From Methylobacter sp. (GTDB lineage Bacteria; Pseudomonadota; Gammaproteobacteria; Methylococcales; Methylomonadaceae): a DNA stretch of 48,013 bases. Both the position numbers and the translations under genes were made by a program. Location of the stretch: assembly GCA_026399025.1 (NCBI GenBank), contig JAPLRU010000002.1, forward strand, positions 1-48,013. Direction: 5' to 3'. Positions 3,446 to 48,013 of the stretch are shown in pieces (within the stretch, counting starts at the first letter, position 1; every line of letters begins with the position of its first letter). The notes under the pieces are model-generated. The model did not search any database, was not told the origin of the DNA, and was given only the letters and a program-made list of their open reading frames with translations.

Positions 3446-3808
3446 GTCCTCAAGTCGAATTAATTTATCTGGGTGCGATAACATCTTGTCTTTATTATCG
3501 GCCGACGTTGGTTTTATTAAACCGCTGCCAACCGGTAACTGCTCAATAACACCTTAAGTGGAAAGACATAGACAGTTTACCGACTGATTTCCGTATTGCT
3601 TAAAATTAAGTGGTTTAGTTGCATAAATTTTAAAGCATAAAAAGCGCCATTTATTTAATTCGATGACTTAACAGTATGTTAGGTTTTGAGCGGCATCAAG
3701 GCTCGAACGTATTGTAATGAATGCAGGTTAGCGTCGAAAATTAGCCCTGCCTCTGGCAAAGAAGCCTCATGGGCAAAGGGGCATGATCTCGGCAATTTGG
3801 AAGCCGTT
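3446..3808. other. Non-coding spacer downstream of exbD
   Basis: AT-rich spacer between the possible 35-residue peptide and the 3' end of exbD. An imperfect GGTTTtattAAACC hairpin lies near 3510-3525. No convincing gene or terminator was found. Confidence 0.5.
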
Positions 3809-4219
3809 CTACCGCTCCACCGTCACGAACGCTATTTTAGTAATGCCGGCATGTTGTACCGCCGCCATGACTTCGGCGACTTTAGAATAAACCACATCTT
3901 GATCCGCGTATAAATGCAGGCCGATTTCAGGGTCTTTTACCAGCTCAGCCTTTAATGCCGCTTCCAAGGCGTTAAGATCGGCGTGCGGAAGCTTATTTAA
4001 CGTAATCCCACCGTGCGCGTCGATGCCGAGTTGCAACGGCTGTTGTTTAACATCCGCAGTGGTTTCGGCGGTTTTCGGCAAAGTCACATGCACCGATTGC
4101 GTGAGTAACGGTGCGGTCACCAATAAAATAATCACCAACACCAGCATGACATCGACGAGAGGCGTGACGTTGATTTCGCTCATCGCGCTTTCGTCTTCCG
4201 ATTGCGGTTTAAAAGCCAT
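3809..4219 (-). CDS. exbD: Biopolymer transport protein ExbD/TolR
   Basis: Inner-membrane subunit of the proton-driven ExbB-ExbD motor that energises TonB. 136 residues, the usual size. A short cytoplasmic N-terminus with the family motif SEINVTPLVDVMLVLVI contains the membrane aspartate (LVDVML) that takes part in proton conduction. One transmembrane helix follows at about residues 20-42, then a periplasmic domain. Start ATG 4219 has AAGGAG upstream, overlapping the exbB stop region. With tonB and exbB just upstream it is assigned to a TonB rather than a Tol system, since no tolA, tolB or pal is nearby. Confidence 0.93.
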   Translation of the reverse strand: MAFKPQSEDESAMSEINVTPLVDVMLVLVIILLVTAPLLTQSVHVTLPKTAETTADVKQQPLQLGIDAHGGITLNKLPHADLNALEAALKAELVKDPEIGLHLYADQDVVYSKVAEVMAAVQHAGITKIAFVTVER

Positions 4220-4221
4220 GT

Positions 4222-4887
4222 TTACTCCTTATCGATAGCGTTCGCGCTTAACGCGATGTGCATAAAGCTGACCACAAAATTTTCCAGACCGACGCGTTGC
4301 TGCTTGACCCGGCGTAAGAAAAAGTTATAAGCCAATACCGCCGGCACCGCGACCGCGATACCGATCGCCGTGGCGACCAAGGCGTCGCCGATCGGGCCTG
4401 CGACCACATCAAGGCTGGTCGAACCGCTTGCGGTAATATCATGCATCGCGTGCATGATGCCTAAAACGGTACCGAACAAGCCGACGAATGGCGCCGTGCT
4501 GCCGATACTGGCCAGCAGCGTCAGGCCGCTGTCCATCATCTGCTGTTCTTGCTGCATTTGCACAAGTAACGCGTGTTCCAACAACTCGGATGGAACGCCG
4601 CAATATTTGAGGTTTTTGCCGACGGCTTGCCGGCTTTCGTCGATCCAGGCAAAGCCTCGCCGGGCAATACGCGCTTGCGGACCTTTGGCTATCTCGTTAG
4701 GCAAGTTTTTTGCCTGCTCCAGATCGGGCGCATCCCAAAATGCCTGATTGAAGCGCCGGTTATACTGAGTATTCTTGATGAATTGCCACGTTTTAAACAG
4801 AATCAGCGTCCATGTCGCCACCGAAAAGGCCACTAAAGTATATAAAGTCCCGTCGATAATAATTTCCGGCGAAAGATGGTAAGGCAT
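4222..4887 (-). CDS. exbB: MotA/TolQ/ExbB proton channel family protein
   Basis: Inner-membrane channel subunit that pairs with ExbD. 221 residues, with one N-terminal membrane segment (about 10-30) and two more in the C-terminal half. Between the latter are the conserved blocks GSTAPFVGLFGTVLGIMHA and GPIGDALVATAIGIAVAVPA, typical of MotA/TolQ/ExbB proteins. Start ATG 4887 has AAGGAG at a good distance. It precedes exbD by only two bases, so the two are co-translated. tonB lies 156 bases upstream, across a spacer that carries a hairpin repeat. Confidence 0.94.
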   Translation of the reverse strand: MPYHLSPEIIIDGTLYTLVAFSVATWTLILFKTWQFIKNTQYNRRFNQAFWDAPDLEQAKNLPNEIAKGPQARIARRGFAWIDESRQAVGKNLKYCGVPSELLEHALLVQMQQEQQMMDSGLTLLASIGSTAPFVGLFGTVLGIMHAMHDITASGSTSLDVVAGPIGDALVATAIGIAVAVPAVLAYNFFLRRVKQQRVGLENFVVSFMHIALSANAIDKE

Positions 4888-4982
4888 TAAAGTCTCCTTG
4901 TTAGGTATTCAAAATAAAATTCAGGGATTCGGTCTCAAACTCCTCGTAATTTTTTATTAGTTACAAGGCTGAGAACTTTTAT

Positions 4983-5037
4983 TCACCACGAAGGCACGAA
5001 GAACACGAAGAAATAAAACTTCGTACCTTCGCGGTGA
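4983..5037. repeat. REP-like hairpin repeat (tonB-exbB spacer)
   Basis: Long imperfect palindrome whose left arm reads TCACCACGAAGGCACGAAG and whose right arm reads CTTCGTACCTTCGCGGTGA. Related hairpins occur at 8251-8294 and 10081-10130. In transcripts it would form a stem between tonB and exbB and could set relative expression or RNA stability. Confidence 0.75.
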
Positions 5038-5043
5038 TGATTT

Positions 5044-5856
5044 TTATCGGGTTAATTTAAATTGCAGCGTTTGAACGGCGCGTTGTTCAACAGCGACACC
5101 GTTAACTATTTTCTCTTTAAAAGTCCATTGGTTAATCGCTTTTAACGCGGCATCATTAAAAATTTCCGCGGGTTCCGCCTCAACCACGACGGCATTTTCA
5201 ACATTGCCGTCAGTGGTAATCGTAAATTCGATTTTAACCCAGCCTTCGATATGACGGTCGGCGGCACGAGGCGGATATTTCGGCGGAATCCGTTGCAACG
5301 GAATGACGCCGCTGCTGATTTTCGGCTCATGGCTGACCACAGCGGGCGCGGGCTGGCTCGCGGCAGGCGGCGTGACAACCGGCGTTACCGGAGGCGCGGC
5401 CGGGCTGGGAGGCGACGGTTTGGCTTCAACAATCGGTTGCGGCTTTGGCAATTCCGCCGGTTTAGGAATCACCGGCAGTGTTTTTTTGACCTGTTTTTGC
5501 ACCGGTTTCGGCGTGGGCTGCTTTTTCGGCGGTTCAGGTTTTGGCGGTGCGGGCGGCGCAGGTGGCGTAACCGGCGCTTTTGGCGTCGGCTGCGAAAGTA
5601 GCGAAACTTCCATCATCACCTGAGCCGGTGTTGGAGGCGGTAGATTCGGTTTTAACAACCAAAAACCAAGCCATAAGTGCAATAGCACCACTAAAACCAG
5701 CATTCCTCCGATAACGCGTGGGTGTTCCGCGTCGGCGGTTGCGGATAATGTTGGCTTCTGCGGCACTACCGGACTCTCCGCGTTATCCAAAGGTGTTAAA
5801 TGACGGTTAGACAAGCCGGTTTCGTGACTGTTCAATAATGGTGATTTCTTAAACAT
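5044..5856 (-). CDS. tonB: Energy transducer TonB
   Basis: Periplasm-spanning protein that carries ExbB/ExbD energy to outer-membrane TonB-dependent receptors. About 270 residues from the chosen ATG at 5856. Order of parts: cytoplasmic N-terminus, one membrane anchor (about residues 53-72, ending WLLKPNLPP), a long Pro/Lys-rich spacer with repeated KP and PP units (about 75-175), and the C-terminal TonB domain with PPKYPPRAADRHIEGWVKIEF. The frame is open upstream to 5958, but that extension overlaps the end of the DedA gene and does not look like protein, so it is excluded. No strong ribosome site is visible at either start. Confidence 0.92.
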   Translation of the reverse strand: MFKKSPLLNSHETGLSNRHLTPLDNAESPVVPQKPTLSATADAEHPRVIGGMLVLVVLLHLWLGFWLLKPNLPPPTPAQVMMEVSLLSQPTPKAPVTPPAPPAPPKPEPPKKQPTPKPVQKQVKKTLPVIPKPAELPKPQPIVEAKPSPPSPAAPPVTPVVTPPAASQPAPAVVSHEPKISSGVIPLQRIPPKYPPRAADRHIEGWVKIEFTITTDGNVENAVVVEAEPAEIFNDAALKAINQWTFKEKIVNGVAVEQRAVQTLQFKLTR

Positions 5857-5917
5857 TAATGCTGCGTTTGTTATGCTCAAAATCCGGATAAAGACCTGAA
5901 ACGTGCATAGAAAAAAT

Positions 5918-6574
5918 TTAGGCGGATTGTGTTTGTTTGAGTAGTTTAATTCTTGCAAACTGCCAAATCATGGGCATGATCGATACGAAAACAATGCCTA
6001 AAACAATTTTCTCGAAATTGTGTTTGACCCACTCATTTGAGCCGAGAAAATATCCCGCCAAGCTGATGCTGGTCACCCATAATGTCGCGCCGATGATGCA
6101 AAAAGTGATGTATTTGGTGTATTTCATGCTGCCCGCTCCGGCCACAAAAGGGGCAATGGTGCGGACGATAGGGATAAAACGGGCAATGATAACAGCTTTG
6201 CCGCCATGTTTTTCGTAGAATTCTTCGGTTTGGGTGATGTATTCCCGCTTAAAAAACAAAATTTGTTGTTTGGATTTGACGAAATTGCCGAAATGTTTGC
6301 CGATGAAATGGTTGACGTTATCGCCGAGCAAAGCCGCACCGATGAGAAGCGGAATGATGATTTGAATATCCAATTTCCCGGTCGACGACGCCAGCAGACC
6401 GACCGCGAACAGTAAAGAGTCGCCAGGCAGTAGCGGCATCACGATTAAGCCGGTTTCGACAAAAATAATCGTCGCTATAATCGCATAGGTAAACATCTCG
6501 TAATGCGTCAAGAAATCTTGCAGAGTGGTAAGAGGATCTCTAAGTAAATGTAATAAGAAGTAAATAATATCCAT
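5918..6574 (-). CDS. DedA family membrane protein (VTT domain)
   Basis: Polytopic inner-membrane protein of 218 residues in the DedA/SNARE-associated family, resembling E. coli YqjA/YghB. Members have been linked to lipid-carrier flipping and membrane-potential homeostasis. Visible blocks are LLPGDSLLFAVGLLA near residue 48, a GDNVNHFIGKHFG segment, and the diagnostic ARFIPIVRTIAPFVAGAGSM near residues 130-150. Several hydrophobic helices follow. It is the first gene of a minus-strand run with tonB, exbB and exbD, separated from tonB by about 60 bases; whether the promoter is shared is not clear. Confidence 0.92.
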   Translation of the reverse strand: MDIIYFLLHLLRDPLTTLQDFLTHYEMFTYAIIATIIFVETGLIVMPLLPGDSLLFAVGLLASSTGKLDIQIIIPLLIGAALLGDNVNHFIGKHFGNFVKSKQQILFFKREYITQTEEFYEKHGGKAVIIARFIPIVRTIAPFVAGAGSMKYTKYITFCIIGATLWVTSISLAGYFLGSNEWVKHNFEKIVLGIVFVSIMPMIWQFARIKLLKQTQSA

Positions 6575-31498: not shown

Positions 31499-32689
31499 TT
31501 ACTCGATTATTGATGCAACGACACCCGCACCTACTGTACGACCACCTTCACGAATTGCAAAACGCAAGCCATCATCCATAGCAATCGGTGAAATCAGCTT
31601 TACCTTTACTGAAATATTATCGCCCGGCATAACCATTTCAACACCTTCAGGCAACTCAACAGCCCCAGTCACGTCTGTCGTTCTAAAATAAAACTGCGGA
31701 CGATAGCCATTAAAGAATGGCGTATGACGACCACCTTCATCTTTAGACAAGATATAAATCTCTGAGTTGAAATATGAATGCGGCTTAATGGTACCTTTAT
31801 GCGCCAACACCTGACCACGCTCAACATCATCTCTTTTTGTTCCTCTTAACAGGATACCGACATTATCACCCGCCTGACCTTGATCCAATAACTTACGGAA
31901 CATTTCAACACCTGTACAGGTTGTTGATACGGTAGGCCTGATACCGACAATCTCGATTTCCTGACCCACTTTAATCACACCACGCTCAATACGACCAGTC
32001 ACCACGGTACCACGCCCGGAAATTGAGAACACATCCTCAATCGGCATCAGGAACGCACCATCTACCGCCCTTTCTGGCAATGGAATATAGCTATCCAGCG
32101 CATCAACCAGCCTGACCACCGAAGGAACACCAATCTCACTGGTATCACCTTCCAGCGCCTTCAACGCCGAACCCACGATAATAGGCGTATCATCGCCGGG
32201 GAACTCATACATATCGAGCAGCTCACGAATTTCCATTTCGACCAGCTCTATCAATTCAGCATCGTCAACCATATCCGCCTTATTCAAGAACACAACCACA
32301 TAAGGCACACCCACCTGTCTTGACAGCAGAATATGCTCTCTGGTTTGCGGCATTGGACCGTCCGCTGCAGAACAGACTAAAATAGCGCCATCCATTTGCG
32401 CCGCACCGGTAATCATGTTTTTGACGTAATCGGCATGACCCGGACAATCAACGTGAGCATAATGACGCGTTGCCGATTCATACTCAACATGGGAAGTAGA
32501 AATAGTGATACCTCGAGCACGCTCTTCAGGCGCATTATCGATCTGATCAAAGGCTTTAACTTCTCCACCCTGAAGTTCTGCCATGACTTTGGTTAACGCG
32601 GCGGTTAAAGTAGTTTTACCGTGATCGACGTGACCGATGGTACCGACATTTACGTGTGGCTTGCTACGTGAGAATTTTTCTTTGGCCAT
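31499..32689 (-). CDS. tuf: Elongation factor Tu (complete copy)
   Basis: 396 residues. GTPase that delivers aminoacyl-tRNA to the A-site. Visible motifs: [14 protein letters not shown] (P-loop, about residue 18), [32 protein letters not shown] and NKADMVDD. Domains 2 and 3 are complete, ending ASIIE. A second copy begins to appear at the right window edge (47870-48013), identical over 128 bases. It lies between fusA and rpsJ, as in the str operon. Confidence 0.99.
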
Positions 32690-46818: not shown

Positions 46819-47352
46819 TTAACTTTTTTCCACTTGCCCGAAACCAAGCTCAACAGATGTTGACCGACCAAAAATAAGAACTGATATTTTTATTTTGCTC
46901 TTTTCATAGTTAACTTCTTCGACAACACCATTAAAATCTTTAAAGGGTCCATCAATAACCCTAATCACTTCACCAACCTCAAACATGGTTTTTGGACGAG
47001 GCTTATTAACCCCATCTTCCACCCTATTGAGAATCGCCATAGCTTCTTTCTCTGATATTGGCGCAGGACGATCAGAAGTACCACCTATAAACCCCAATAC
47101 CTTAGGCACATCTTTCACTAAATGCCAAGTTTCATCAGTCAAGTCCATTTGCACCAAAACATATCCGGGGAAAAATTTCCTTTCGCTTTTCCTTTGCTGC
47201 CCCATCCTCATTTCCACAACCTCTTCCGTAGGCACCAGAATCTTTCCAAAATACTGCTCCAGACCATCCCTCTTTATTCTTTCCTCTAAAGCTTGCTTGA
47301 CCTTATTCTCAAAATTTGAATAAGCATGCACAACATACCAGCGTAATGCCAT
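46819..47352 (-). CDS. nusG: Transcription termination/antitermination protein NusG
   Basis: 177 residues. Binds the polymerase clamp and, through its KOW domain, Rho or ribosomal S10. N-terminal [20 protein letters not shown], then [14 protein letters not shown]; the C-terminal KOW part has [20 protein letters not shown]. Start ATG 47352 has AGGGAGG-like bases 5-10 upstream, which also encode the tail of the ancestral secE frame. Confidence 0.99.
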
Positions 47353-47356
47353 TTCC

Positions 47357-47700
47357 CTACCCTCCTTGACCAGTTAAAAAACGCACTCCCCAAAATAGAA
47401 ACATATCTAGCAACCACAGAATCAAACCAACAATAAAAACCATCGCAAAGACGGCCAAACAACCTTCCTAACCTCCAGCTTAGATTCTAAAACGAAAGAC
47501 CAGACAGTACGTCCCATATCCGTAGTAAGCGTGATACCAGCCACAACAAGAACCACAAACATCAAACCGAGCACTCTATACAAAACTGAAACTTCTGAGA
47601 AATAATAGAACGCAGCCACACCAGCAACCACAAAGACGACAGAAAATACTTGCTTAACGACATCAAATACTGATGTGCTTGCTTCTACTTGAGTATTCAT
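47357..47700 (-). pseudogene. secE: secE with an apparent frameshifting deletion
   Basis: SecE is the essential helix-clamp subunit of the SecYEG translocon. From ATG 47700 (MNTQVEASTSVFD) the protein reads normally through two membrane helices into the signature SKLEVRKVVWP. There the expected TRQET-type segment is missing and the frame runs into LRWFLLLV and a stop at 47422. In the next frame the sequence continues as VFAMVFIVGLILWLLDMF and LTGQGG to a stop at 47357, five bases before nusG. Aligned by eye to E. coli SecE, about 11 codons (roughly 34 bases) are lost. This is either a sequence or assembly error or a real truncation. Between tRNA-Trp and nusG, as usual. Confidence 0.85.
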
Positions 47701-47745: not shown

Positions 47746-47821
47746 TGGCAGGCCAGGAGGGTCTCGAACCCCCAACCCGCGGTTTTGGAGACCGCTATTC
47801 TACCAATTGAACTACTGACCT
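47746..47821 (-). tRNA. tRNA-Trp (anticodon CCA)
   Basis: Minus strand, 76 bases with an encoded CCA end. Acceptor AGGTCAG pairs with CTGGCCT (one G-T pair). The anticodon loop CTCCAAA sits on the stem GCGGT/ACCGC and gives CCA, tryptophan. The T arm GGGGG-TTCGAGA-CCCTC is normal (one G-T pair). It lies between tuf copy 2 and secE, a common arrangement in bacteria. Confidence 0.96.
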
Positions 47822-47869: not shown

Positions 47870-48013
47870 TTATTCAAGTATTGACGCAACGACACCCGCA
47901 CCTACTGTACGACCACCTTCACGAATTGCAAAACGCAAGCCATCATCCATAGCAATCGGTGAAATCAGCTTTACCTTTACTGAAATATTATCGCCCGGCA
48001 TAACCATTTCAAC
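47870..48013 (-). CDS. tuf: Elongation factor Tu, second copy (partial, 3' end)
   Basis: The last 47 codons and the stop of a second tuf gene; the rest lies beyond the window edge. The protein ends ASILE, against ASIIE in the copy at 31499-32689. Bases 47886-48013 are identical to the matching part of that copy; the only differences are in the last few codons. Presence of one tuf in the str operon and one before tRNA-Trp-secE-nusG is typical of gammaproteobacteria. Confidence 0.97.

Follow-up and report, generated by a model that had tools for sequence, protein, structure and literature searches.

Escherichia coli SecE is, in the sections of the published account that deal with it, an essential three-helix protein, and SecE a clamp that holds SecY by means of its membrane segment and cytoplasmic tail (PMC9360617). 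Broken genes in public records have been surveyed across 126,564 genomes, where, in extracts of that work, many putative pseudogenes were traced to assembly errors, and Illumina assemblies generally had the fewest frameshifted pseudogenes, with little variation between runs (PMC11017572).

The window, that is the whole stretch of DNA analysed here, is a complete contig (C23) of 48,013 bases from the 5.23 Mb draft genome of a Methylobacter sp., which comprises 138 contigs with an estimated completeness of 100% and contamination of 0.36%. On its minus strand, tuf (truncated where the contig ends, at 48013), tRNA-Trp, secE, nusG and rplK follow one another, with the secE site directly upstream of nusG and behind tuf and tRNA-Trp. 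ARAGORN places tRNA-Trp (cca) at 47746..47821 on the minus strand. nusG (46819..47352, minus strand) is an intact ORF of 177 aa, at most 99% identical to Methylobacter nusG; at the protein level NusG is 97-99% identical to the best 13 nusG loci, nearly all of them labelled Methylobacter.

Position and size of the gap in secE

The focal secE, on the minus strand from 47700 to 47357, lacks 34 bases, and the gap lies directly 3' of the RKVVWP codons. From the ATG at 47700, translation (MNTQ...LEVRKVVWP) is normal as far as Pro-83, whose codon occupies 47454-47452. A preliminary description of this DNA had claimed that the frame is normal through RKVVWP and then jumps, and the sequence, the ORFs and an alignment with 21 relatives confirm this. 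Past Pro-83, frame 0 reads SLRWFLLLV and ends at a TGA (47424-47422). The 5' part of the gene (47425..47700, minus strand), delimited from the ORF list and NCBIfam matches, is therefore made up of 83 native and 9 out-of-frame residues, and it holds TM1, TM2 and the amphipathic helix through RKVVWP.

The third membrane helix and a stop just before nusG were also said to survive in another frame, and that is where we find them. The 3' part (47357..47467, minus strand) is open from 47467, with the preceding stop in that frame at 47470, down to a stop at 47359-47357, and only 4 bases separate this stop from the nusG ATG at 47352. A TTG at 47458 could serve as its start. Over 46 bases (47467-47422) it overlaps frame 0.

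Alignment with the nusG-upstream sequences of the 21 relatives yields a single 34-base gap directly after TGGCC and no other frame-changing gap in the coding part of secE. By alignment and codon census, the deletion junction falls at the Pro codon CCG (47452..47454, minus strand); the exact breakpoint of the approximately 34-base loss lies there or one to two bases off. Relative to these sequences, eleven codons and one base are missing, and their counterpart is the TRQETLHTTL region of E. coli SecE, so that the lost stretch comprises the hinge that follows WP and the beginning of the third helix (E. coli WPTRQETLHTTL). The interval 47357-47700 is 344 bases long, or 2 mod 3. Its not being a multiple of three, the loss of about 34 bases and the shortfall of about 11 residues against E. 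coli SecE had all been read correctly from the sequence in the preliminary description.

No single ORF carries one continuous SecE domain above the curated cut-offs of PF00584 or TIGR00964. The Pfam SecE model (PF00584, 55 positions, cut-off 22.7 bits) matches the 5' ORF over positions 1-18 with 15.7 bits and the 3' ORF over positions 28-54 with 22.2 bits, whereas SecE of M. tundripaludum SV96, as a control, scores 67.6 bits over positions 2-54. Taken from stop to stop, the 3' frame alone reaches 23.8 bits, just above the cut-off. With TIGR00964 the two parts score 16.1 and 15.7 bits against a cut-off of 27.55, and SV96 scores 55.5. NCBIfam SecE models cover residues 1-84 of the 5' part with a best E-value of 6.2e-23, under their curated cut-offs. 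The amphipathic helix, the WPTR.ET hinge and the third helix do not stand together in a single frame, the hinge after WP being missing.

The same site in relatives, and the age of the lesion

All 80 nusG-linked loci kept for comparison (L040-L119) retain a single frame from WP to the end of the gene, and so do all 16 same-genus loci that span the site (L121-L136). A single frame was also seen in 29 of a further 30 loci (L002-L031); the thirtieth, L012, was missed by the text pattern, yet has a Pfam match over positions 2-54. In length, the 16 same-genus matches exceed the query stretch by 21 to 37 bases, and 13 of them by 31 to 34, an excess that includes contributions from intergenic indels. 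The nearest genome compared is 84% identical over the secE region. In a profile search of 60 relatives, 53 have exactly one SecE match, spanning the profile from position 6 or earlier to position 52 or later, and the 7 without a match are each less than 90% complete. A split SecE was found in none of the relatives examined.

We also searched a class-wide sample filtered for at least 95% completeness, in which 259 of 281 genomes, the focal genome included, have a SecE match. The best E-value of the focal genome, 2.4e-4, is the weakest in that table; the next weakest are 3.1e-7, from a 0.4 Mb genome, and 4.8e-11. Given the single frame at 80 of 80 and 16 of 16 loci and this weakest class-wide E-value, the broken state is peculiar to the focal record among the genomes examined. 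A lineage-wide feature was rejected, the broken frame occurring in no relative examined. In those parts of the literature on SecE truncation, on Methylobacter secE and on secE frameshifts, pseudogenes or assembly errors that were covered, we recognised no description of a split SecE. Separately, contig breaks at tuf/secE or a divergent SecE may account for the 22 class genomes that have no match.

An intact second secE would make the focal copy dispensable. Searched by family, the 5.23 Mb genome gave only one Pfam match, which is the 3' part of the focal gene; the first 83 residues as a protein query gave one true match and two others at E 0.3 or worse; and the 344 bases as a DNA query gave one copy and four chance matches of 24 bases or fewer. 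An additional copy within the genome's own sequence, which the preliminary description had offered as one reading, was thus not found and is rejected. That it lies on sequence absent from the assembly is extremely improbable: with 138 contigs a short piece could have gone unassembled, but the estimated completeness is 100%, the protein and DNA searches turned up no other match, and the relatives with a SecE match have exactly one each.

To judge the age of the lesion, we counted pN and pS by the Nei-Gojobori method against 16 same-genus genes. The 31 codons 3' of the junction, read in the third-helix frame, have a mean pN of 0.032, the lowest of the 17 genes (next 0.034), with an ordinary pS of 0.479, and the peptide they encode is identical to that of L125, L126 and L132. 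For the 83 codons 5' of the junction, pN is 0.135 and pS 0.562, both second highest of the 17 and within the range of the relatives. No decay or further lesion was seen in either half. Judged from these substitution patterns, purifying selection would have acted on the whole three-helix gene until very recently. Because the codons after the junction are conserved, any mutation must be very young, and the lesion would appear to be either very young or absent from the organism. Conservation in both halves rules out an old pseudogene. The absence of decay in either half, together with a state that no relative shares, also disfavours a truncation tolerated over a long time, another of the readings first proposed.

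A fixed deletion could be tolerated in either of two ways: the cell might make SecE in two pieces and begin the third helix internally, at TTG 47458 behind AGGAAGG, or a -1 shift within 47467-47422 might join the frames into a protein about 11 residues shorter. We regard this as very unlikely. The third-helix frame is open and conserved and overlaps frame 0, AGGA stands 7 bases before the candidate TTG, and one of the three membrane stretches of E. coli SecE reportedly suffices for function, to judge by the title of Schatz et al. 1991. However, the AGGAAGG simply encodes the conserved Arg-Lys and does not set the focal gene apart, the C piece would be without the conserved cytoplasmic hinge TR.ET, the relatives examined include no split SecE, and each ORF alone stays under the Pfam cut-off, which the C frame passes only when taken from stop to stop. 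The 46-base overlap also contains no slippery heptamer of the form X XXY YYZ; the only XXXYYYZ heptamers in the gene, at 47394 and 47381, lie past the frame-0 stop and out of frame, and programmed -1 frameshifting was rejected on this criterion. The specific form in which a real, fixed deletion leaves a Sec translocon with a two-piece SecE, consisting of the N piece and a separately started third helix of 33 residues with no hinge, is highly improbable. A working two-piece or frameshifted SecE is thus conceivable but unsupported.

The contig end and the quality of the assembly

The deletion junction lies about 0.56 kb from the end of the contig, and the contig ends within a tuf repeat. What remains there of the second tuf gene is its 3' end (47870..48013, minus strand), recognised by its match to the tuf gene at 31499-32689: the contig's final 128 bases repeat a part of that gene without a difference, and the next 16 contain four differences. 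Three other genomes of the genus (G015, G019 and G021) have as many differences between their tuf copies. Close to the end, the Ile/Leu difference recurs in 8 of 9 genus pairs; the ninth pair, from G003, has no difference and one tail that is unreadable. Random errors at the contig end were accordingly rejected, tuf giving no sign of them.

The two tuf copies of the window (31499-32689 and 47870-48013) thus part after 128 identical bases, their last codons reading SIIE and SILE. Such copy-specific endings recur in 8 of the 9 genus pairs; across the final 144 bases, six of these pairs have 3 to 6 differences and the other two have 11 and 17. At the opposite end of the window, the stretches at about 32-149 (118 bases) and 1759-1842 (84 bases) recur at other contig ends and are interspersed repeats. 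The second of them covers the listed TTG start of an ORF at 1793-2677 (MNPPHPNLLPEGEG...); translation of this ORF probably begins downstream of that TTG.

Among 68 contig ends tested against the stretches of the genome that were covered, five have a longest exact match of exactly 141 bases, and two pairs of ends share overlaps of exactly that length; the window's own end shares 128 bases, not 141. 'k141' also occurs in the names of several related records. These 141-base overlaps and record names suggest a de Bruijn assembly with k=141, of the kind that MEGAHIT makes. De Bruijn assemblers should not build a junction on just a few bases in common when no read runs across it, from which we infer that the library held some molecules with the deletion. 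In the profile search of relatives, at least 16 of 54 SecE matches start no more than 1.3 kb from the first base of their contig (a lower bound, matches near far contig ends not being counted), so the neighbourhood of secE is a common assembly breakpoint.

To look for split frames, we then set 1.02 Mb of focal DNA against 1.2 Mb of SV96 (G019), accepting ORFs whose best piece had at least 60% identity and 80% coverage. In a first pass, 256 SV96 ORFs were well covered and 4 of them were flagged as frame-split. By their coordinates, two are antisense to ribosomal protein genes; a third, in C12, is a shadow frame, the focal genome having an intact long frame at that place. secE itself is the fourth. 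Once overlapping ORFs had been taken out, secE and the C12 case were the 2 flagged among 145, and only secE is a confirmed split; the remaining 907 of the 1052 non-overlapping SV96 ORFs have no match passing the thresholds in the 1.02 Mb. The reverse comparison flagged 0 of 137. An in-frame stop in the focal alignment was seen for 8 SV96 ORFs (5 in the reverse comparison), three of which lie on the plus strand of the window's ribosomal/rpo region, where the genes are on the minus strand.

One further stretch of the focal genome (L157, contig C7 of G000, 3579-5992) aligns with three SV96 ORFs, at 60-92% identity, and interrupts them by in-frame stops; these ORFs could be antisense frames or mark a decaying region.

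With one confirmed frame split among 145 ORFs, a generally error-prone assembly was rejected for the part compared. About 1.0 Mb was compared and no confirmed split apart from secE came to light, which makes a base-calling error unlikely; the isolation of the lesion in the part compared tells against careless sequencing.

Origin of the junction and comparison with known systems

We favour a flaw in the record, in which the junction stems from chimeric or minority molecules while living cells have an intact secE, and give this reading a probability of roughly 0.7. The organism, a Methylobacter-like methanotroph, would encode a normal three-helix SecE between tuf/tRNA-Trp and nusG; the 34-base gap would be a consensus flaw from a junction present in chimeric library fragments or in a few cells; and that junction would have been carried into a short-read de Bruijn contig close to the end where the tuf repeat broke the graph. 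Single-frame relatives, conserved halves, a sole copy and a contig end in tuf all point this way, as do the frequent contig breaks in this neighbourhood, the 141-base overlaps and the published tracing of many putative pseudogenes to assembly (PMC11017572). Molecules with the junction were most likely not the majority in living cells, and the type of assembler named here is likewise the most likely one. The main result against an artefact is the isolation of the lesion in an otherwise clean compared part (1 of 145); further points against it are that Illumina assemblies generally have the fewest frameshifted pseudogenes (PMC11017572), that the junction probably needs real molecules and that tuf at the contig end shows no random errors. 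Sequence or assembly error, the first of the three readings in the preliminary description, is thereby favoured, though short of proof, and in a narrower form: a spurious junction near a repeat-bounded contig end fits better than an assembly that is generally error-prone, which this one is not.

The main alternative is a true deletion allele of very recent origin that the assembler took as the consensus although only some of the sampled population carried it; its carriers would be dying cells or cells that also possess an intact copy. We consider it unlikely. The probable need for real molecules would suit it, as would the absence of decay around the junction, which is expected of a very recent mutation, and the clean remainder of the compared assembly. 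Yet SecE is essential in E. coli, according to portions of the published account (PMC9360617), and a deletion allele could hardly replace an intact one. Nor do the likely breakpoints indicate ordinary replication slippage. Just before the Val on the right of the gap, 73 of the 80 loci L040-L119 have Leu and the other 7 have Met, and L121-L136 have Leu in 16 of 16. Since all 96 loci have Leu or Met, a lost sequence of the same kind would give the breakpoints at most about one base in common, and slippage between direct repeats is then not favoured. In the one relative searched for it (L123) there is no direct repeat of 8 bases or more at a spacing of 34, and slippage between repeats of that length was rejected on this one sequence. 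A 7-base repeat, TTGGCCG, is possible if the focal genome had an Ala codon before Val.

Were the lesion real, a membrane protein that ranks among the most conserved would be split in nature, and the hinge between the surface helix and the membrane helix of SecE would be shown to be one that can be cut. The likeliest account is a flawed record or a transient mutant, not new biology, and the case mainly warns against reading biology, without the reads, into a secE that is absent or interrupted in a draft.

Like the artefactual pseudogenes of public bacterial assemblies, as parts of the survey describe them (PMC11017572), the focal gene belongs to a draft assembly and is broken by an indel whose length is not divisible by three; unlike them, it sits in an assembly whose compared part shows no enrichment in frame splits, and its indel measures 34 bases. 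It departs from gammaproteobacterial SecE (PF00584, NCBIfam PRK05740.2-5) in the 34 bases missing between the amphipathic helix and the third membrane helix, no single ORF amounting to the whole domain. In other respects it resembles that family: the gene order is tuf, tRNA-Trp, secE, nusG, rplK, both halves match SecE models, and with M. tundripaludum SV96 SecE the two parts share 81% and 88% identity.
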